Shown here: one piece after another, positions 13,151 to 42,757 of the stretch
How positions within the stretch are numbered: the first letter of the stretch is position 1
Layout: each line of letters starts with the position of its first letter
Origin: Gammaproteobacteria bacterium
GTDB lineage: Bacteria > Pseudomonadota > Gammaproteobacteria > JAABTG01
Assembly: GCA_017999615.1 (NCBI GenBank)
Contig: JAGNLM010000002.1
Coordinates: 1 to 64,000, forward strand
Length of the DNA: 64,000 nucleotides
Direction: 5' to 3'
Position numbers and translations under genes: made by a program
Notes under the pieces: generated by a model
Told to the model about the DNA's origin: nothing
The model's input: only the letters and a program-made list of their open reading frames with translations
Database searches by the model: none

Positions 13151-14689
13151 ATGCCCGATCGCCTCCCCGCCCCCGCCGACCTGCACCAGCGCCTCGCCGC
13201 CCTGCGCGCGCGCCTCGAGCACGTCAGCCGCGGCTGGGCGGAGGGCAGCTACGAGGCCCTGATCAGAGTTCTGGTGGAGCTCCTCCCCGCCGCCCTCGAC
13301 AGCGAGCGGGCCACGGTGTTCGTCGCCGAGCCGGGTGAGACCCCCATCTGGGCCAAGATCGGCACCGGGATCCGGGAGCGCCAGATCGAGGCCCCGCGCG
13401 CCGAGAGCGTCGTCGGGCAGACCGTCACCTCCGGACGGCCGGTCGTGGAGAACCGGCCGAGCCGCTCGGGCGGCTTCCACCGGGAGACGGATTCCCGCAC
13501 CGGTTTCGAGACCCGCAACCTCGCCTGCGTCCCCATCCCGAGCCCCTCAGGCCACGGGTTCATCGGTGCCGTCGAGGTGCTGAACCACCGGTCGGGCGGG
13601 TTCGGGGAGGCCGACGTGGCCCTCCTGGAGCGGGTCGCCGGGCAGCTCGGCGCGGCGGTGGAGAGCGTCCTTGTGAACCGGGAGATCCGCGCCGTCGGCG
13701 CGGGGCTCGACCAGGAGGTCCAGCGCCTGCGCAGCAACTACCTCGGCGACGTGCCGCTGGTGGCGGAGAGCCCCGCGATGCGCTCGGTGATCCAGATGGT
13801 GCGCACGCTGGCCACGACCCCCGTGAACGTCCTCGTCCAGGGCGAGAACGGCACCGGCAAGGAGGTGGTCGCCCGGCTCCTGCACGACCTCGGCGAGCGG
13901 CGCGAACGCCCCTTCGTCGCCGTCAACTGCGCCTCGATCCCGGAGACGCTGATGGAGAGCGAATTCTTCGGCTTCGAGCGCGGCGCCTTCACCGGTGCGG
14001 TGGCGAGCCGCGGGGGGCGATTCGAGGAGGCCGCGGGCGGCACCCTGTTCCTGGACGAGGTCGCCGACCTGCCCCTCTCCATCCAGCCCAAGTTCCTGCG
14101 CGCGATCCAGGAGGGCGAAGGGACGCGCCTCGGCAGCGGGCAGGTCCGCCGCTACGACTTCCGGGTCATCAGCGCGAGCAACCGCGACCTGCGGGCGGCG
14201 GTCGCCCGCGGGGCGTTCCGCGAGGACCTCTTCTACCGGCTGTTTGCGGTCGAGGTCCGAGTGCCGCCCCTGCGCGAGCGGCCCGAGGACGTGGCGGAGC
14301 TGACCCGGGCCTTCCTGGTGGACACCGCCCGGCGCTTCGGACGCCCCCAGCTCACCCTCAGCCCCGAGGTGCTGGCCCTTTTCGAGGCCTACCCCTGGCC
14401 CGGGAACGTCCGCCAGCTCAAGCGCGAGGTGGAGCGCCTGGTGGCGCTGACCCCGCCGGGGGAGCCCCTCGGGCTGGAGCGCTGCTCGGAGGAGCTGCGC
14501 CACTGGCCAGGAGTGCCCGCCGTGGCCGAGGGGAACGGACTGAATCTGCCCCGGCAGGTCGAGGCCCTGGAATCCGAGCTCATCCGGCGCGCCCTCGCCG
14601 CGAGCGGCGGCCAGCGCACCCGGGCCGCGGCACTGCTGGGCATCACGCGACAGGGGCTGCACAAGAAACTGCGAAGGAGAGAGGCATGA
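13151..14689 (+). CDS. Sigma-54-dependent transcriptional activator: GAF, AAA+ and Fis-type HTH
   Basis: Enhancer-binding protein that would remodel sigma-54 RNA polymerase. Order: GAF sensor domain (about 30-180), AAA+ domain (about 205-430) with Walker A GENGTGKE at 231, intact sigma-54-contacting loop GAFTGA at 278 and Walker B GGTLFLDE, then a Fis-type helix-turn-helix at the C-terminus (RTRAAALLGITRQGLHKKL). There is no receiver domain, so it probably senses a small ligand or partner through GAF, as NorR does, rather than a phosphoryl group. Its stop overlaps the galE start by 4 bp. Three sigma-54 promoters lie 1-4 kb downstream and are plausible targets. GGAG lies about 11 nt before the ATG. 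Confidence 0.92.
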   Translation: MPDRLPAPADLHQRLAALRARLEHVSRGWAEGSYEALIRVLVELLPAALDSERATVFVAEPGETPIWAKIGTGIRERQIEAPRAESVVGQTVTSGRPVVENRPSRSGGFHRETDSRTGFETRNLACVPIPSPSGHGFIGAVEVLNHRSGGFGEADVALLERVAGQLGAAVESVLVNREIRAVGAGLDQEVQRLRSNYLGDVPLVAESPAMRSVIQMVRTLATTPVNVLVQGENGTGKEVVARLLHDLGERRERPFVAVNCASIPETLMESEFFGFERGAFTGAVASRGGRFEEAAGGTLFLDEVADLPLSIQPKFLRAIQEGEGTRLGSGQVRRYDFRVISASNRDLRAAVARGAFREDLFYRLFAVEVRVPPLRERPEDVAELTRAFLVDTARRFGRPQLTLSPEVLALFEAYPWPGNVRQLKREVERLVALTPPGEPLGLERCSEELRHWPGVPAVAEGNGLNLPRQVEALESELIRRALAASGGQRTRAAALLGITRQGLHKKLRRREA

Positions 14690-15687
14690 CCCGAAACATC
14701 CTGCAGACGGGCGGCGCCGGCTACATCGGCAGCCACGTGACGCGCCAGCTCGCCGAGCTCGGCCACCGGGTGGTGGTGCTCGACAACCTCTCGAAGGGGT
14801 TTCGCGAGGCGGTGCTCGGCGCGGAGCTCGTCGTCGGCGACACCGGGGACCGGGCACTCGTCAGCCGGCTGCTGCGCGAGCACGCCATCGACTCCGTCCT
14901 GCACTTCGCGGCCCACACCATCGTCCCGGAGTCCGTGGAGAAACCGCTCAAGTACTACGGCAACAACACCTGCAACACCCGCAGCCTGCTGGAGTGCTGC
15001 GCGGAGGCGGGCGTCCGCCACTTCATCTTCTCCTCGACTGCCGCGGTCTACGGGATCCCCGAGCACATGCCGGCCACCGAGGACTCACCCACGGCGCCGA
15101 TCAACCCCTACGGCATGTCGAAGCTGATGAGCGAGCACATGCTCCGGGACCTCTCCCTCGCGACCCCCCTGCGGCACGTGATCCTGCGCTACTTCAACGT
15201 CGCCGGAAGCGACCCGGGCGGGCGGATCGGTCAGTCGACCCCCGAAGCGACGCTGCTCGTGAAGGTCGCCTGCGAGCACGCGGTCGGCAAGCGCCCGTCG
15301 GTCTCCATCTTCGGCACCGACTACCCCACCCCGGACGGCACCGGCGTGCGCGATTACATCCACGTGGAGGACCTCGCCTCCGCGCACGTGAAGGCGCTCG
15401 ATTACCTCGCCGGTGGCGGCGAGTCGGTCACCCTCAACTGCGGCTACGGCCACGGCTACAGCGTACGCGAGGTGCTGGACGCGGTCGCGCGCGTGCACGG
15501 CGCCCCCCTTCACGTCATCGAGCAGCCCCGGCGCGCGGGCGATCCGCCGAGCCTCGTCGCCGGGGCCTCTCGCGTGCGCGAGGTCCTCGGCTGGACCCCC
15601 CGCTACGACGACCTGGAGGTCATCGTGCGCACCTCCCTGCAGTGGGAGCGTGCGCCCCGGTACGGGACTCCATCCGCAAGGCCCTAG
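14686..15687 (+). CDS. galE: UDP-glucose 4-epimerase
   Basis: Interconverts UDP-glucose and UDP-galactose for exopolysaccharide or LPS. Extended short-chain dehydrogenase fold: NAD-binding TGGAGYIGSH at residues 8-17, serine-rich FSSTAAVYG, catalytic Tyr-x3-Lys (NPYGMSK, Tyr near 142), and DGTGVRDYIHVEDLA typical of GalE. 333 residues, normal length. ATGA overlap with the sigma-54 activator gene implies translational coupling, so sugar-nucleotide supply and the regulator are made together, consistent with a polysaccharide/PEP-CTERM locus. Confidence 0.95.
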   Translation: MTRNILQTGGAGYIGSHVTRQLAELGHRVVVLDNLSKGFREAVLGAELVVGDTGDRALVSRLLREHAIDSVLHFAAHTIVPESVEKPLKYYGNNTCNTRSLLECCAEAGVRHFIFSSTAAVYGIPEHMPATEDSPTAPINPYGMSKLMSEHMLRDLSLATPLRHVILRYFNVAGSDPGGRIGQSTPEATLLVKVACEHAVGKRPSVSIFGTDYPTPDGTGVRDYIHVEDLASAHVKALDYLAGGGESVTLNCGYGHGYSVREVLDAVARVHGAPLHVIEQPRRAGDPPSLVAGASRVREVLGWTPRYDDLEVIVRTSLQWERAPRYGTPSARP

Positions 15688-15774
15688 CTTCACCCGCCCC
15701 CCTCCGACCCTCGCGCCACACCTCCCACCCGCAGTGGGCGGAAGGGAAGGCGTGCCTTGACTTGTCGGCAGGTT

Positions 15775-15790
15775 TTACAGTGTTCGCTGT
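15775..15790 (+). promoter_or_regulatory. Candidate upstream activating site A
   Basis: TTACAGTGTTCGCTGT: an imperfect dyad (ACAG-N6-CTGT) centred about 62 bp upstream of the -24 element of the first PEP-CTERM gene. Similar TTACA-led sites lie at nearly the same distance before the other two PEP-CTERM genes. Confidence 0.45.
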
Positions 15791-15843
15791 CCGCCTTCGT
15801 GGGCCCCGATCCAAGCCCCTGATCACAAATAAAGTGTGACGAA

Positions 15844-15859
15844 GGGCGCAAAAATTGCT
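15844..15859 (+). promoter_or_regulatory. Sigma-54 (-24/-12) promoter of the first PEP-CTERM gene
   Basis: GGGCGCAAAAATTGCT fits TGGCAC-N5-TTGCW with exact 10-bp spacing between the -24 GG and the -12 GC. It lies 43 bp before the ATG. Confidence 0.7.
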
Positions 15860-15902
15860 TCATTTGTGGACGAGGTCACAATAAAAAGATCGGGAGGAGG
15901 AC

Positions 15903-16895
15903 ATGGCGAGCGTCACCGCTCGGCAGGTTGTTTTGTCCCTGATTCTGGTCGCTTCGACACCGTGCGCCAGCGGCATCACCATCGACATCCAGTTCGTCGG
16001 CGACGCGGTGTCGGCCGGTTTCTTCACACCGGAGCGCGAGAGCGTCATCCAGGCCGCAGGCACCTACGTCGGGTCCCGGCTGAGTGACAGGCTTGCCGCC
16101 ATCCACCCCGTCGGGGAAGAGTCGTTTCTCGGGTCGACCTTCTACCCCGGCACCGGCAAAGGCAGCGCACGGATTTCCAGCGTCCCCGCGGACACGCTGG
16201 TGGTCTTCGTCGGCGCCAACGATGCCTTTGGCGCAAGCACGCTCGCGGTGGGTAGTCCCGGGGGTACGAGCGCATCGGGCGATGAGGCGTTCGTCAGCCT
16301 GGCCCGAAATCGAGGCCAAGGTCCGGGCACCGACTTCGGCCCTTGGGGCGGCAGCATCGCCTTCAACCCCGGGTTCAACTGGTACGCCGACCCGGACCCG
16401 TCGACGGTCGAGTCGTTCTCCGGGTGGGACCTGTTCTCCACCGCCATCCACGAGCTCGGCCACCTGCTCGGCTACGGCACAGCAACGTCCTGGTCGAACC
16501 AGGTCGTCGACCAAGTCGTCGACAAGGTCGTCACGGGCGCGAACGCCCGGTCGGCCTTCGGCGGCCCGGTGCCCCTGGCCGACCGCTGGCACTGGGCGAG
16601 CGGTCTGCAAAGCCTGGCGCTCGGCGGCTCGCAGGAAGCCGCCATGGACCCCACCCTCTCGGCCGGCACGCGCAAGTACTTCACGGAACTGGACTGGGCG
16701 GGCTTGGCCGACGTCGGCTGGGAGGTCGTTCCCGGCGCGGCCCTCTCGAGCGAGACGGCCTTCGCGTCGGCCTCCATCCCCGCCGCGCCGGCCGCGTCGA
16801 TGACCCCCACGCCGCTACCGGCGTCGGTCGTGCTCCTCGGAACGGCACTCGTACTGACCGCGGGTCTGCGCAGGCGAGCGCAGCCACCCCCCTGA
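15903..16895 (+). CDS. PEP-CTERM-sorted protein with a metalloprotease-like HExxH motif
   Basis: Predicted secreted protein of 330 residues: signal peptide (about 1-22, ending CASG), zinc-protease-like motif HELGHLLGYG near residue 183, then a downstream MDPTLSAGTRKYF and LADVGW segment as seen in secreted HExxH peptidases of the metzincin type. The C-terminus carries PLPAS, a hydrophobic helix and RRR, the three-part PEP-CTERM sorting signal cut by an exosortase. The third zinc ligand is not at the usual +6 position; HW near residue 233 may serve. ATG 15903 follows a strong GGGAGGAGG. Transcribed from a sigma-54 promoter. Confidence 0.8.
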   Translation: MASVTARQVVLSLILVASTPCASGITIDIQFVGDAVSAGFFTPERESVIQAAGTYVGSRLSDRLAAIHPVGEESFLGSTFYPGTGKGSARISSVPADTLVVFVGANDAFGASTLAVGSPGGTSASGDEAFVSLARNRGQGPGTDFGPWGGSIAFNPGFNWYADPDPSTVESFSGWDLFSTAIHELGHLLGYGTATSWSNQVVDQVVDKVVTGANARSAFGGPVPLADRWHWASGLQSLALGGSQEAAMDPTLSAGTRKYFTELDWAGLADVGWEVVPGAALSSETAFASASIPAAPAASMTPTPLPASVVLLGTALVLTAGLRRRAQPPP

Positions 16896-17138
16896 GTCAC
16901 CGCAAAGGCCACCGACGCCCCTCGGGCGGACGCGGACGGACTGTCGGGGCTTCGCGGGGCTTACGCTCCAATCATCCTTGCTGCCCGCCTGACGCGGACG
17001 GGCGCGGTACGGAAAGGACCGCCGTCGCGACTCGCCCCGGAGGGTCCAACACATCCTGGACGGTCGCTCGCGTGATCGCGGCCCTGCCGTACAGCGGGCG
17101 GATCACCCAGGTTCTCCTGCCGCCGCTGTCGGTGCGCC

Positions 17139-17154
17139 TTACACACCGGCGTGT
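17139..17154 (+). promoter_or_regulatory. Candidate upstream activating site B
   Basis: TTACACACCGGCGTGT: dyad ACAC-N6-GTGT centred about 63 bp upstream of the -24 element of the second PEP-CTERM gene; same TTACA-N8-TGT layout as site A. Confidence 0.5.
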
Positions 17155-17208
17155 GAGACTCGCCCCACACGGTTGGAACCCCCTGAAACCACTGTCCTAC
17201 CCGCAGGA

Positions 17209-17224
17209 TGGCGTGAGTCTTGCT
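17209..17224 (+). promoter_or_regulatory. Sigma-54 (-24/-12) promoter of the second PEP-CTERM gene
   Basis: TGGCGTGAGTCTTGCT matches the consensus at TGGC, the G at position 7 and TTGCT, with exact spacing. It lies 78 bp before the ATG. Confidence 0.8.
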
Positions 17225-17302
17225 GTGCGCCGACCCGATTGGGAGGCACCCGGCACGGCCACGGGGCGCCGCAGACCGAGTCCGTCATCCGGGGATACGC
17301 TG

Positions 17303-18091
17303 ATGCATCCGACCAGCCGACACGCCGCGCGCTTGGCCTTCCTTGCCGCCACTCTGGTAACCGCCGAAGCTCCGGCGTACTCGCTCAGCCAGTCTGCGCC
17401 GGGGAAGTGGGGCGACCCCGCCTTCGGCACCGGGGCCGTCATCAGCTACAGCTTGATGGGGGCAGGGCTCGATACCGGTTCCGGTCGGACGAGCGTCGAC
17501 TTCTCCACGTTTATGCCGGGGGGGTTCGAGGACGACATCCGCAGCGCCTTCGCGGCTTGGTCGGCGGTGGCCAACCTCGGCTTCGTGGAGGCGCTGGACC
17601 CCGGCGTGGGCGCCTACAATATCGGCGCGGATGCGGTCAACATCCGCATCAGCGGGGTCGACTACGGGCCCACCGACATCCTGGCGGACGCATTCTTCCC
17701 ACCGAGCTTCGGCGGCTCCGGCGCCGGCGACCTCCACTTCAACAGCCAGGTGGACTGGCGGCTCAACTCGGACGCCGGGACGGGGATCAGCGTCTATCTG
17801 GTCGCGGTGCACGAGATTGGACATGCCCTTGGACTGCACCACCCGGGCTGCGGCAGCTCGCCCGCCTGCCCTGACCTGGGCCCCTACGGGAGTGACCCGC
17901 TCACCTCGCGCCTGATGTCACCCACCTACAATGTGAGCCTCATCGGTCCGCAACGCGACGACATCGCCGGAATCCAGCACCTCTACGGGCCGCCGACGGG
18001 GGCAGTGCCGGTACCCGGGAGCCTTGTCCTGTTTGCCAGCACGCTCGGTTTCCTGGCCGGTGCGCGTCGCCGCCAGCGACTCCCCCGGTGA
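17303..18091 (+). CDS. Matrixin-like (M10) zinc metalloprotease with PEP-CTERM-like anchor
   Basis: 262-residue secreted protein. Signal peptide (about 1-24); matrixin zinc motif HEIGHALGLHH near residue 170 with all three His; Met-turn in SRLMSPTY near 205; C-terminal VPVPGS, hydrophobic helix and RRR (about 237-262), a variant PEP-CTERM signal. The domain before the zinc motif resembles the matrixin fold (FAAWSAV segment; DILADAFFPP). Known family members cleave extracellular proteins; substrates here are unknown. ATG 17303 has GGGGAT about 8 nt upstream. Own sigma-54 promoter; 407 bp from the previous gene. Confidence 0.85.
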   Translation: MHPTSRHAARLAFLAATLVTAEAPAYSLSQSAPGKWGDPAFGTGAVISYSLMGAGLDTGSGRTSVDFSTFMPGGFEDDIRSAFAAWSAVANLGFVEALDPGVGAYNIGADAVNIRISGVDYGPTDILADAFFPPSFGGSGAGDLHFNSQVDWRLNSDAGTGISVYLVAVHEIGHALGLHHPGCGSSPACPDLGPYGSDPLTSRLMSPTYNVSLIGPQRDDIAGIQHLYGPPTGAVPVPGSLVLFASTLGFLAGARRRQRLPR

Positions 18092-18428
18092 GGGAAGAGG
18101 CCCCCTGACCGGATTGCCAGCCGGTCGGCCACTCCAGCTTGCTCACGGCACAGAATCAGCGCGCTATCGCTTCGCGAACGCCTGACGCGCCGCCGAGGGG
18201 GTGGAGTGATCAGGAAGCCCTCGAAGGGCTCTGACCCAGCGCGGATAGGGCGCGCGCCCCCTTCCCCCTGCGGGGCCGCCGGCGGGGTGGGCCGGCGCTG
18301 GTCAACTCCATGCTGCGCGAGCCACGGGTAGGCACCGTCCTGGTGCTCGCGTCGAGCGCCCCGGCGCGATGGAGAAGACCACCCGCCGAGCTGCCTTTTT
18401 TCAGCCACGAATGCCGCCCGTCCTGAGT

Positions 18429-18442
18429 GTGACGTGCGTCAC
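18429..18442. promoter_or_regulatory. Inverted repeat upstream of the third PEP-CTERM gene
   Basis: GTGACG-TG-CGTCAC, perfect 6-bp arms, centred about 94 bp upstream of the -24 element. Possible additional regulator site. Confidence 0.35.
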
Positions 18443-18460
18443 GCCGACCGTCGGGCGGCG

Positions 18461-18476
18461 TTACAGTCCACGGACC
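18461..18476 (+). promoter_or_regulatory. Candidate upstream activating site C
   Basis: TTACAGTCCACGGACC keeps the TTACAG half-site of site A, but the right half is degenerate. Centred about 60 bp upstream of the -24 element. Confidence 0.35.
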
Positions 18477-18527
18477 GGAGAGACCAAAAAGACACCCAAC
18501 GCACTGCAATAGCTATTTTTTTGGATG

Positions 18528-18543
18528 TGGCACAGCACGTGCT
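18528..18543 (+). promoter_or_regulatory. Sigma-54 (-24/-12) promoter of the third PEP-CTERM gene
   Basis: TGGCACAGCACGTGCT: perfect TGGCAC at -24 and GTGCT at -12 with exact spacing. It lies 44 bp before the GTG start. Confidence 0.8.
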
Positions 18544-18587: not shown

Positions 18588-19469
18588 GTGAAGACCCACC
18601 TCCGCCTCTGCGCCCTCGCCGTCGGCCTCCTGGGGCTGGCTACTGCCTCTCCTGCCCGGGCAAATCCCGACGCGACCATTTTTGACACCTACTGGGGAGC
18701 GGATGACCACGGCTGGGGCGACGTGATCGGCGACGCTGGCAGGTTCAACATTGGAAAAGCCGAGGTCACGCTTGCGGGAACCTGGCTGACGGTGGACATC
18801 TACACTGCCTTCGCCACCCAAGCGGGCGTTTGGTTTACTGGCTACACACGGAATCCGGAATCGCATACGAATGACCAGAAAGGCATCGGCTACGGGGATC
18901 TCTTCCTGGCAGAGTCCTGGACCCCGCATGCGGAAGGGGCAAGCGGCCAAAACGGGGATTACCCGACCTACAACAAGGACGACAGCACCAACGGCACCCT
19001 TTGGACCTATGCGATCTCGATCGGTGACGGTCTGCGCTGGGGCGGAAAAACGACCACGAGGACAGCGGTCACGCTCTACCAACTCAGGGGGACCAACGAC
19101 GAAAACGCCTACCTGAGTGACGATTATCTCTTCAACGCGACCTGGCGCAACAAACAGGTGGTCGCGGTCGATACCGTGGATAACTCCAAGGTTGAGCGGC
19201 TATCCAACAACGCGTTCTTCACGGTTCAGTCTGATTTCTTGCGATTCGAGCTCGACCTGGCCGGAACGTCGCTCGCCGGAAAGGACCAGTTGGCGCTGCA
19301 CTGGGGCCAGACCTGTGCCAACGACGTGATCGAGGGTCGGGCCCTGAACCTTCCCAAGCAACGCGTCCCCGAGCCCACCACCCTGGCGCTGCTCGGCCTC
19401 GGCCTCGCCGGCATCGGTTACGCGCGCCGCGAAAAGGGCCGCGAGAAAGCGTTTCGCGCGCCGCGATAG
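18588..19469 (+). CDS. PEP-CTERM sorting-domain protein of unknown function
   Basis: 293-residue secreted protein with a signal peptide (ending SPARA, about residue 24) and a textbook C-terminal sorting signal: VPEPTTLALLGLGLAG, then a basic tail starting ARRE (from about residue 260). The central 235 residues are rich in Thr, Asp, Trp and Tyr, as in beta-rich extracellular proteins; no enzyme motif seen. Codons are visibly less GC-rich than in the neighbouring housekeeping genes, which is common for surface proteins. GTG 18588 has AAGGAG 6 nt upstream. Own sigma-54 promoter and a downstream terminator, so probably monocistronic. Confidence 0.88.
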   Translation: MKTHLRLCALAVGLLGLATASPARANPDATIFDTYWGADDHGWGDVIGDAGRFNIGKAEVTLAGTWLTVDIYTAFATQAGVWFTGYTRNPESHTNDQKGIGYGDLFLAESWTPHAEGASGQNGDYPTYNKDDSTNGTLWTYAISIGDGLRWGGKTTTRTAVTLYQLRGTNDENAYLSDDYLFNATWRNKQVVAVDTVDNSKVERLSNNAFFTVQSDFLRFELDLAGTSLAGKDQLALHWGQTCANDVIEGRALNLPKQRVPEPTTLALLGLGLAGIGYARREKGREKAFRAPR

Positions 19470-19708: not shown

Positions 19709-22489
19709 ATGCCGCGCACCCCGAGCCTACGCCAGAGCCTCGCCCTCCCCGTCCTGTTCGCCATCGCCCTGCCCGCCTGCGACGCGGGTCCCACGGCGGC
19801 CGAGCACGTCGACCGCGCCCGGGCCTTCGTGGACAAGCGGGATCTCAGCGCTTCGGTCATCGAGCTGAAGAACGCCCTGCAGAAGGAGCCGGAGAACGCC
19901 CAGGCGCGCCTGCTGCTCGGCAGGGTCTACCTGGACCTCGGCGACGGCGCCGGAGCCGAGAAAGAGCTGGCGCGCGCCGGGCGGCTCGGCGCCTCGGACC
20001 CTGAGCTGCCCCTCACGCTCGCCCGCGCCCTGCTGCTGGAACGCAAGTACCAGGAGGCCCTGGACCAACTGGCGAAGGCACCGGCCGACCCACCCTCGGC
20101 GCGGGTGCTGGTCCTGCAGGGCGAGGCGCATCTCGGCCTCGGGCAGCGGGAGGAGGCCCGCGCCGCCTTCAACCGGGCGCTGGAGGCCGAGCCCGGCCTC
20201 ACCGCCGCGCGGCTGGGTCTCGCCAGCCTCGCCCTCGCCGAGGGCCGCACGGAGGATGCGCAGAAGCAGGTGACCCTGGCCCTGGAGAAGAGCCCCGACG
20301 ACCTCCGGTCCCTGCTGCTGCGCGGTGAGCTGCTGCTGGCACGCCGCGATCTGGAGGGCGCCGAGGCGGCCTTCGCGAAGGCCCTCGAGGTGGGCGGAGA
20401 GCGCAACACGTCCGCCCGTCTCGCCCTCGCCCGCGCCAAGCTCGCCCGGGGGGACCTGGATGGGGCCTCGGCGCAGGTGGAGCAGGTACGCAAGCAGTCG
20501 CCCCAGGAGCCGCTCGCCAACTACCTCCGGGGGGCCATCGCCTACCAGCGCAAGGACATGAGCGGGGCCCAGGAAGCCCTGCGCGACGTGCTGCGGGTCG
20601 TCCCCGATCACCTGCCGAGCCTCCTGCTGCTCGGCACGGTGGACTACGCCGAGGGCCGGCTGGAACAGGCCGAGGAGCACCTCTCCCACTACAGCGCCGC
20701 GGTCCCGGACCACATGGCCTCGCGCAAGCTCCTGGCGGCGGTGCGGCTCGCCCGCAACGAGCCCGACCGGGCCCTCGAGGCGCTCGCCCCGGCCGCGAAA
20801 CAGGCCGCCGGGGACCCGCAACTCCTGGCGCTCCTCGGCACGGCCCACCTGCGCAAGGGTGACGCTGCCCGGGCGGAGGAGTACCTCACCCAGGCGAGCC
20901 AGCTGGCGCCCGACGTCGCGGCCATCCGCACCCAGCTCGCCCTGACCCACCTGGCCACCGGCGAGGCCAAGGAGGCCGTGGCCGAGCTGCAGTCGGCGGT
21001 CGACCTCGGCGCCGGCACGGGGCAGGCCGAGGTCCTGCTCGTGCTGACCCACCTGCGCCAGGGCCAGACCGACGAGGCCCTGGCGGCGGCCCGCAGGCTC
21101 GCCGAGCGCCAGCCCGAGAACCCCCTGGCCCACAATCTCGTCGGCGCGGCCTACCTCGCGAAGCAGGACACGCCGAGCGCCCGGGCCGCCTTCGAGCAGG
21201 CCCTGAAGGTCTCGGCGGCCTTCGCGCCGGCCGCCCTCAACCTGGCTCAGCTGGACGTGCGCGAGGGCAAACGCGACGCTGCCCGCGCCCGTTACGAGTC
21301 GGTGCTCTCCCGCGACGAGCACAACGTACAGGCGCTGGTCGGCCTCGGCCGGCTGGCCGGCGAGGCGAACGACGGGCCGCGGGCGGTGGAGCTCCTGGAG
21401 CGAGCGCGCCAGCACCACCCGAACGCCCTGGAGCCCCGGCTGATGCTCGCCGCCTACTATCTCGACAACGGCCCTCTCGCGAAGGCGGTCGAGGTGACGC
21501 AGGAGGCGGTCAAGCTCGCCCCCGAGAACACCGTCGCGCTGGGGCTGCAGGGCCAGACCGAGCTGCTCTCGGGCCACCCGGCCGATGCGGCGCGCACCTT
21601 CGCTGCCCTGGTGGCGAAGGGCGTGAAGACCCCCGACCTGCACGCGCGCCTCGCTGCCGCGCAGTTCGCGACCGGCAAGCGGGAGGAGGCTCGCGCCTCG
21701 TTCTCCCGCGCGCTCGAGCTCTCCGAGGGCAAGCACGCGGGGGCCCTCCTGGGGCTCGGGCGCCTGGACATCGCCGCAGGGAAGCCGGAGGCGGCCCGGG
21801 AGCGCGTCGATCGGCTGAAGGCCCTCTACCCCGCGTCCCCTGCGGGCCCGGGCCTCGAGGGGGACATGCTGTTCGCCGCCCGGCAACCGGTCGAGGCCGC
21901 GGCAGCCTACCAGGACGCCCTGGCCAAGGGAGGCGGCGCGGACGTGGTGCTGAAGCTGTCCCAGGCCCGCCGGGCCGAGGGCGACGAGGCCGGCGGCCTG
22001 CAGGCGATGCGCGACTGGCTCGCCCAGCACGCCCAGGACGGCGCGGTGCGCCTGGCGCTCGCGAGCACCCTCCAGGCCTCGGGCCAGCGGGATGCGGCGG
22101 CGAAGGAGTACGAGCTCCTGGTCTCGCAGCAGCCCAAGAACGCCGTCGCCCTGAACAACCTGGCCTGGCTCTATTTCGAATCGAAGGACCCGCGGGCGGC
22201 GGACCTCGCGCAACGCGCCCTCGCCGAGGCCCCGGAGAACCCCGCCATCCTGGACACCGTCGGCTGGATCCGGGTGCAGCAGGGCCAGGTGGAACAGGGC
22301 GTGCAGCTCCTGCGCCAGGCGGCGGAGAAGGCCCCGCGGGAGGCGGAGATCCGGTATCACCTGGGGGCTGCGCTGGCCCGCTCGGGCGACATGGCTCGCG
22401 CGCGCCAGGAGCTGGAGGCGGCGGTTGCGGGCGCCGGCGAGGCAGCCTGGAAGACGGAAGCGAAGCGGCTGCTGGACCTCCTGCCCTAG
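19709..22489 (+). CDS. prsT: PEP-CTERM system TPR-repeat lipoprotein PrsT
   Basis: 926-residue lipoprotein made of about 20 or more tetratricopeptide repeats (residues about 30-920), with an N-terminal signal ending in ALPAC (Cys24 as lipidated residue). Length, lipobox and continuous TPR array match the PrsT family (TIGR02917), which co-occurs with exosortase/PEP-CTERM systems and is thought to act as an envelope scaffold in exopolysaccharide or protein export. Its usual neighbours (prsK, prsR, exosortase, EPS genes) are not in this window. A -24/-12 promoter as in the three preceding genes was not found. The large open frame on the opposite strand is a codon shadow. Confidence 0.9.
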   Translation: MPRTPSLRQSLALPVLFAIALPACDAGPTAAEHVDRARAFVDKRDLSASVIELKNALQKEPENAQARLLLGRVYLDLGDGAGAEKELARAGRLGASDPELPLTLARALLLERKYQEALDQLAKAPADPPSARVLVLQGEAHLGLGQREEARAAFNRALEAEPGLTAARLGLASLALAEGRTEDAQKQVTLALEKSPDDLRSLLLRGELLLARRDLEGAEAAFAKALEVGGERNTSARLALARAKLARGDLDGASAQVEQVRKQSPQEPLANYLRGAIAYQRKDMSGAQEALRDVLRVVPDHLPSLLLLGTVDYAEGRLEQAEEHLSHYSAAVPDHMASRKLLAAVRLARNEPDRALEALAPAAKQAAGDPQLLALLGTAHLRKGDAARAEEYLTQASQLAPDVAAIRTQLALTHLATGEAKEAVAELQSAVDLGAGTGQAEVLLVLTHLRQGQTDEALAAARRLAERQPENPLAHNLVGAAYLAKQDTPSARAAFEQALKVSAAFAPAALNLAQLDVREGKRDAARARYESVLSRDEHNVQALVGLGRLAGEANDGPRAVELLERARQHHPNALEPRLMLAAYYLDNGPLAKAVEVTQEAVKLAPENTVALGLQGQTELLSGHPADAARTFAALVAKGVKTPDLHARLAAAQFATGKREEARASFSRALELSEGKHAGALLGLGRLDIAAGKPEAARERVDRLKALYPASPAGPGLEGDMLFAARQPVEAAAAYQDALAKGGGADVVLKLSQARRAEGDEAGGLQAMRDWLAQHAQDGAVRLALASTLQASGQRDAAAKEYELLVSQQPKNAVALNNLAWLYFESKDPRAADLAQRALAEAPENPAILDTVGWIRVQQGQVEQGVQLLRQAAEKAPREAEIRYHLGAALARSGDMARARQELEAAVAGAGEAAWKTEAKRLLDLLP

Positions 22490-41584: not shown

Positions 41585-41860
41585 GGGAAGGGGATGTCAC
41601 ACCCTGCCCCCCCGGTCCCTCCCTCCGGGGGGGGGCAGGGCCTGCGCACCACACCCTGGTTGACCCCTGCGAGCCGGCGGCGCTAGCCTGTCCTCGGCTC
41701 AAGACCGGACGTCGCGGTGTCGATAGACTTGACACCCACGGGTCGCGGCCCGGCGGCGGCATCCGGAAGCCCCTGGGGCGCCGGGGTTGTTGCGCCCCTG
41801 GCACACAGGATGCTTTCATTCAGGGCGGTCCGGTTCCGCCCCCCTGCCTTGAGGAGGATC
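41585..41860. other. Intergenic region before the lytic transglycosylase gene
   Basis: Contains the GC hairpin at 41602-41640. A promoter for the + strand gene should lie after it; TTGACA at 41728 and TTGACC at 41662 resemble -35 boxes but no good -10 is paired with them. Confidence 0.35.
41602..41640. repeat. Large GC-rich hairpin
   Basis: Arms CCCTGCCCCCCCGG and CCGGGGGGGGGCAGGG with a TCCCTCCCT loop. Long C and G runs make it prone to sequencing or replication slippage. Confidence 0.6.
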
Positions 41861-42757
41861 GTGGCCTCTCACCGAATCTCCGCCCTCCTGTTCGGCCTCA
41901 CCGCAGCCCTCGCGGCGGTGGGCGCCAGCGCCAGCCCCTCGGTCCAGCGCATCCTGCGCTTCGACGCCGTCACCCAGACCGCCTGGGGCGAGCGCTACGA
42001 GCACGGGGAAGGGGTCGGCCAGGACTACGGAAAGGCCGTCCAGCTCTACTGCGCGGCGGCGCGCCAGGGCAACCCGCGGGCCCAGTACCGGCTCGGCTGG
42101 ATGTACGCGAATGGCAGGGGAGTCACCCGGGACGACGGGCTCGCCGCGGCCTGGTTCCAGCTCGCGGCAAAACAGGGCGACGAGCACGCAGGGCGCATGC
42201 TCCAGCACGTGGCGATGCCGGCGAAGCCGGTGAAGGCCCGCTGCGTCGGACCGCAGGCACCGCTGACCCGCCCCCTCATGGCTGCACGGATCGATCTGAA
42301 ATCCCCCCAGCGCAAGGCCGTCGTCGACACGGTCAAGCGTCTGGCCGACCGCTACGGCCTCGACCCGCACCTCGTGTTCGCGGTCATTCAGGCCGAGTCG
42401 GCCTTCGACCCGAGGGCCGTGTCGCCGAAGGGCGCCATGGGGGTCATGCAGTTGATGCCGGACACCGCCGAGCGCTTCGGAGTTCGGGACCCCTTCGACG
42501 TGGAGGACAACCTGAAGGGGGGCATGGCCTACCTGCGCTGGCTGCTACGCCAGTTCGACGGCAGCGTGGTGCACGCCGTCGCCGCCTACAACGCGGGCGA
42601 GCAGGCGGTGAGCCGCTACGGCGGGATCCCCCCGTACGAGGAGACCCAGACCTACGTGCAGCGCGTCACCTCCTACTACCCGCACCCGAGTCACCCGGTC
42701 GGCGAGGGGGCTTCGATCGCGCGACGGGTCGCGCCCGCGCGCCAGGGAGACTCCTGA
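41861..42757 (+). CDS. Lytic transglycosylase (SLT domain) with Sel1-like repeats
   Basis: 298 residues: signal peptide (about 1-22, ending VGASA), two Sel1/TPR-like repeats (about 40-110; YGKAVQLYCAAARQGNPRAQYRLGWMYANGRGV), then a family 1 SLT domain with catalytic Glu near 178 (IQAESAFDPRAVSPKGAMGVMQLMP) and AYNAGEQAV. It would cleave glycan strands of peptidoglycan in the periplasm. GTG 41861 has GAGGAGG 4-10 nt upstream; an earlier ATG at about 41810 would mask the signal peptide. Confidence 0.9.
   Translation: MASHRISALLFGLTAALAAVGASASPSVQRILRFDAVTQTAWGERYEHGEGVGQDYGKAVQLYCAAARQGNPRAQYRLGWMYANGRGVTRDDGLAAAWFQLAAKQGDEHAGRMLQHVAMPAKPVKARCVGPQAPLTRPLMAARIDLKSPQRKAVVDTVKRLADRYGLDPHLVFAVIQAESAFDPRAVSPKGAMGVMQLMPDTAERFGVRDPFDVEDNLKGGMAYLRWLLRQFDGSVVHAVAAYNAGEQAVSRYGGIPPYEETQTYVQRVTSYYPHPSHPVGEGASIARRVAPARQGDS

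Follow-up and report, generated by a model that had tools for sequence, protein, structure and literature searches.

A predicted PrsR box and a sigma-54 promoter precede each of three consecutive PEP-CTERM genes between galE and prsT

The window, a stretch of 64,000 nucleotides of a gammaproteobacterial genome, contains a run of three genes for predicted exosortase substrates, flanked upstream by galE and downstream by prsT. Each of the three is preceded by an element of the sigma-54 type.

14686..15687, plus strand: galE (UDP-glucose 4-epimerase), upstream of gene 1
15844..15859, plus strand: sigma-54 -24/-12 element of gene 1, GGGCGCAAAAATTGCT
15903..16895, plus strand: gene 1, encoding a secreted protein that resembles metalloproteases (AIHELGHLLG) and has a variant PEP-CTERM/VPLPA tail
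17209..17224, plus strand: sigma-54 element of gene 2, TGGCGTGAGTCTTGCT
17303..18091, plus strand: gene 2, matrixin-type (M10) metalloprotease with the variant PEP-CTERM tail VPVPGS
18528..18543, plus strand: sigma-54 element of gene 3, TGGCACAGCACGTGCT
18588..19469, plus strand: gene 3, canonical PEP-CTERM protein, directly 5' of prsT
19709..22489, plus strand: prsT, PEP-CTERM system TPR lipoprotein (TIGR02917, 803 bits), directly after gene 3

The products of all three genes score at or above the 16-bit cut-off of the PEP-CTERM family TIGR02595. Gene 3 has the only canonical tail of the three (VPEPTTLALLGLGLAGIGYARR, 29 bits). The tail of gene 2, VPVPGSLVLF, is a variant with 19.3 bits, and that of gene 1, TPLPASVVLL, is a variant with 16.0 bits, borderline at the cut-off. 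Both variants stay below the 25.35-bit cut-off of the VPLPA-CTERM family TIGR03370, at 17.2 bits for gene 1 and 14.8 bits for gene 2. Among the three co-regulated surface proteins, two are metalloproteases, of the HELGHLLG and matrixin types, whose sorting tails are variant and weakly scoring.

The GG-N10-GC spacing is present in all three elements, at 15844, 17209 and 18528. An earlier reading made from the sequence alone had described them as TGGC elements with exact -24/-12 spacing; the positions and the spacing are confirmed, while the first element begins with GGGC. The same reading placed the elements 43-78 bp before the start codons, and we measure 43 bp (ATG 15903), 78 bp (ATG 17303) and 44 bp (GTG 18588). 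The GTG start of gene 3 is preceded by AAGGAG. An upstream ATG at 18525 overlaps the promoter at 18528, so it cannot start gene 3 if this promoter is used. A search for sigma-70-type promoters across 15.6-19.7 kb found none.

Sites were scored with an approximate sigma-54 weight matrix composed from general knowledge, against a background of 361 kb of the same genome (15 stretches plus the window), supplemented by genome-wide pattern searches. By this rough matrix the element of gene 2 ranks first in the window, that of gene 3 second and that of gene 1 fourth. Near their starts, 7 of 9 PEP-CTERM genes have a site with a score of at least 12, and none of 184 background genes does (Fisher p = 2e-11). 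Sites scoring at least 14 are rare, with seven in 361 kb on both strands, three of which are the elements of genes 1-3. The looser pattern GGCNCN5TTGCT has 27 matches genome-wide against 27 for the control, and the sigma-54 half alone is therefore not specific.

The decisive feature, overlooked in the sequence-only reading, is a second motif. A 17-nt box, TGTCGG-N6-TTACA, precedes each sigma-54 element, with spacers of 64, 65 and 62 bp for genes 1, 2 and 3.

15763..15779, plus strand: predicted PrsR box upstream of gene 1 (motif 1 of Haft et al.), TGTCGGCAGGTTTTACA
17127..17143, plus strand: predicted PrsR box of gene 2, TGTCGGTGCGCCTTACA
18449..18465, plus strand: predicted PrsR box of gene 3, CGTCGGGCGGCGTTACA, which departs from the applied consensus at two positions

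Haft et al. 2006 (PMC1569441) describe a two-motif layout in which a 17-nt motif ending in TTTACA and predicted to bind PrsR is followed by a spacer (mean 62.8, SD 10.6) and the sigma-54 motif. Our boxes agree with this motif 1, taken as an ending in TTTACA 32-92 bp upstream; gene 2 reads CTTACA and gene 3 GTTACA. By sequence, the box is motif 1 of the PEP-CTERM regulon and hence the predicted PrsR site; we found no direct demonstration of PrsR binding to it in the literature. The likeness to the sites in the text of Haft et al. extends to the spacing of about 63 bp, the -24/-12 element, the single-gene PEP-CTERM unit in a long intergenic region, and the co-occurrence with PrsK, PrsR and PrsT.

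The pattern TGTC-N8-TTACA has 14 matches genome-wide and none for the reversed control. The combination of box and promoter is found at 6 of 9 PEP-CTERM genes and at 0 of 184 background genes (p = 1e-9). One of the nine, C2:222172, has no site at all, and two on contig C13 have a sigma-54 site and no well-placed box, so some PEP-CTERM genes appear to be controlled otherwise. On C13, a three-gene PEP-CTERM cluster (C13:9902-13800) has sigma-54 sites with degenerate or misplaced boxes, one of which is at a distance of 101 bp. Another gene with a VPLPAS tail (C3:169108) has two boxes and no clean promoter. The combination of box and promoter also brought to light two sorted proteins, C4:125967 and C1:679258, whose tails (IPAPA and VPLPP, respectively) are weak.

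The regulators expected of such promoters are encoded in the genome, and all score above their curated cut-offs. A full-length PrsR (741 bits, cut-off 502.6) and an adjoining PrsK (807 bits) lie in the XrtA exopolysaccharide locus on contig C1; PrsT is the lipoprotein encoded next to gene 3. The genome further encodes an exosortase (258 bits), a single rpoN and an ihfB-like gene with 69% identity to E. coli IhfB. The sequence-only reading had pointed out that PEP-CTERM genes of other bacteria depend on RpoN and PrsK/PrsR, and both the upstream boxes and this gene complement bear out that the promoters are of this kind. A second PrsT-like gene (C1:102053-104764) and a second exosortase gene (C1:698279-698977) are also present, so two sorting systems may coexist.

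A third element lies in the spacer between each box and its promoter.

15812..15824, minus strand: IHF-like element in the spacer of gene 1, 32 bp ahead of the -24 element, reading CAAGCCCCTGATC on the top strand
17176..17188, minus strand: IHF-like element in the spacer of gene 2, 33 bp ahead of the -24 element, reading GAACCCCCTGAAA on the top strand
18497..18509, minus strand: IHF-like element in the spacer of gene 3, 31 bp ahead of the -24 element, reading CAACGCACTGCAA on the top strand

Each has one mismatch to YAANNNNYTGAWW, the reverse complement of an IHF-type site. The name IHF-like refers to sequence: the elements match WATCARNNNNTTR, whose reverse complement is YAANNNNYTGATW, and keep a fixed position in the spacer. 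We searched for the same arrangement in public genomes, where 55 of the first 80 sites found (a non-random sample that includes related species) lie upstream of genes whose products count as PEP-CTERM-like under a simple tail rule. A scan of 369 genomes of the class gave 112 sites in 59 genomes and three control matches. In both samples (80 and 112 sites) the distance from box to promoter falls into three classes, 52, 63 and 74 bp, and values in between are almost absent. The concentration at a 10.5-bp period is R = 0.78 and 0.67, respectively, with a null maximum of about 0.25; a fit of the period gives 11.5-11.8 as the best value, and the spacer peaks are 11 apart. Whatever the spacer class, the IHF-like element starts roughly 31-33 bp ahead of the -24 element; it is present in 52 of 80 sites (7.3 in shuffled sequences) and recurs in 15 of 27 held-out sites, a set that includes the three promoters of the window (1.2 in shuffled sequences).

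These data suggest a layout that probably holds across Proteobacteria, in which a PrsR box, an IHF-like bend site and a sigma-54 promoter follow one another, the bend site being fixed and the box moving only in 11-bp steps. Such steps (52, 63, 74 bp) would keep the box on one face of the helix. The layout is stricter than the text of Haft et al. describes: discrete spacer classes and a third, IHF-like element are added here. We found no report in the open literature of PrsR spacing or of IHF at PEP-CTERM promoters, and the new detail here is this layout rule. An IHF-type site between enhancer and promoter is also a feature of IHF-assisted sigma-54 promoters of the NifA and XylR type (general knowledge; PMC7962754). 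Unlike in those systems, the putative IHF site here is fixed to the promoter and the enhancer box moves in 11-bp steps.

Based on the sequence evidence, the three genes are very probably separate single-gene units, each with an RpoN-dependent promoter of its own and controlled by the PrsK/PrsR two-component system that the genome encodes. The switch at each gene, a PrsR-type box with a sigma-54 promoter, is the standard one for this class of proteins throughout Proteobacteria, and it marks the locus as part of the known regulon and not as a locally rewired one. In the proposed mechanism, PrsK would signal to PrsR, and phosphorylated PrsR would bind the TGTCGG-N6-TTACA box. The spacer would be bent, probably by IHF occupying the conserved IHF-like element 31-33 bp before -24, and the bend would bring PrsR to the sigma-54 RNA polymerase, where the AAA+ domain of PrsR would open the promoter. 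Activation would occur separately at each of the three genes, from predicted transcription starts, and the products would undergo export and, along with exopolysaccharide, be handled by the exosortase system.

The alternatives to control by PrsR centre on another regulator encoded just upstream of galE.

13151..14689, plus strand: GAF-AAA+-Fis sigma-54 activator, NifA/NorR-like, judged not to be the activator of the three promoters

It has GAF, AAA+ (with an intact GAFTGA motif) and Fis-type HTH domains. As had been noted from the sequence, a GAF domain stands in place of the receiver, and the protein reaches only 286 bits against the 502.6 of the PrsR family (TIGR02915). We searched for orthologues in 56 genomes, our own included, at E <= 1e-100. 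PrsR could be the main activator while the GAF protein modulates the three promoters or others close by, such as its own or that of galE. This is unlikely: the activator is indeed found near the locus in two species of the genus, but no common element of the three upstream regions beyond the box, the IHF-like site and the promoter stood clearly above shuffled sequences.

That the GAF activator controls the three promoters locally in place of PrsR, the variant of the regulon that the sequence-only reading had proposed, is more improbable still, and we do not retain it. The protein is the closest sigma-54 activator, its GAFTGA motif is intact and it has a Fis-type HTH, and in the sister genome G001 its orthologue (94%) is syntenic with galE and two PEP-CTERM genes. 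However, the same box and spacing occur at PEP-CTERM genes elsewhere in this genome and in other Proteobacteria, and the recognition helix of the GAF activator (ITRQGLHKKL) is unlike that of PrsR (VSRPTLYDLV). In the three upstream regions no extra shared element rose clearly above shuffled sequences. Furthermore, the activator does not track the boxes. In G002 the orthologue (59%) adjoins genes for type II secretion, and no PEP-CTERM gene was recognised in its vicinity; that genome (85% completeness) has boxes, and prsT was not detected in it. In G003 and G004, which belong to the same family, boxes and prsT are present without an orthologue at the threshold used. In these two genomes galE and prsT are adjacent with no PEP-CTERM genes between them, and the PEP-CTERM genes were thus probably inserted there in this genus. 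In G001 the relative of gene 1 has its own box and promoter with a 63 bp spacer, and the relative of gene 3 has a strong promoter and, 140 bp away from it, a box. Finally, chance can be put aside as an explanation of the -24/-12 matches with near certainty: although the window has no excess of loose-consensus matches (73 with up to three mismatches, 79 expected), high-scoring sites are rare, three of them fall on three consecutive gene starts, and they are paired with boxes at a fixed spacing and conserved in the held-out sites.

Predicted PrsR sites also precede genes outside the PEP-CTERM class. A fourth pair of box and promoter lies in the window and is conserved in the sister genome G001.

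41718..41734, plus strand: fourth predicted PrsR box, TGTCGATAGACTTGACA
41799..41814, plus strand: fourth sigma-54 element, TGGCACACAGGATGCT, 64 bp after the fourth box
41861..42757, plus strand: Sel1-repeat/lytic transglycosylase (SLT) gene, downstream of the fourth promoter

The product of this gene lacks a PEP-CTERM tail. Elsewhere in the genome, PrsR-type boxes precede genes for a GGDEF/EAL c-di-GMP protein (C9:52155-52390), a histidine kinase (C1:458718-458814) and a small PilZ-like protein (C16:10157-10252), and a box alone precedes an exosortase-associated acyltransferase gene (C1:116284). The presence of boxes at such genes suggests that the regulon may extend beyond sorted proteins.

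The arrangement at gene 3 resembles that of Aquincola tertiaricarbonis RN12 (PMC9850573), where pepA lies upstream of prsT and has an RpoN1-dependent mapped start with the promoter TGGCAC/CTGCTT. In both cases a PEP-CTERM gene with a sigma-54 promoter is directly 5' of prsT. Loss of rpoN1 was seemingly without effect on prsT transcription in that organism; similarly, a search before prsT of our locus found no pair of box and promoter. Against control by PrsK/PrsR stands a result of the same study, in which plasmid-borne prsK-prsR did not restore floc formation of the mutant (PMC9850573). Unlike in Aquincola, three exosortase-substrate genes lie between galE and prsT here, two of which encode metalloproteases with variant tails.

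Our analysis settles which of two controllers is likely to act at this locus. It also indicates that scoring box and promoter together recovers exosortase substrates that score poorly by their tails, as for genes 1 and 2, C4:125967 and C1:679258. The fixed layout provides a sharp rule to predict, for any proteobacterial genome, which genes belong to the PrsR regulon; it also predicts that helical phase and IHF matter for the expression of floc and biofilm surface proteins.
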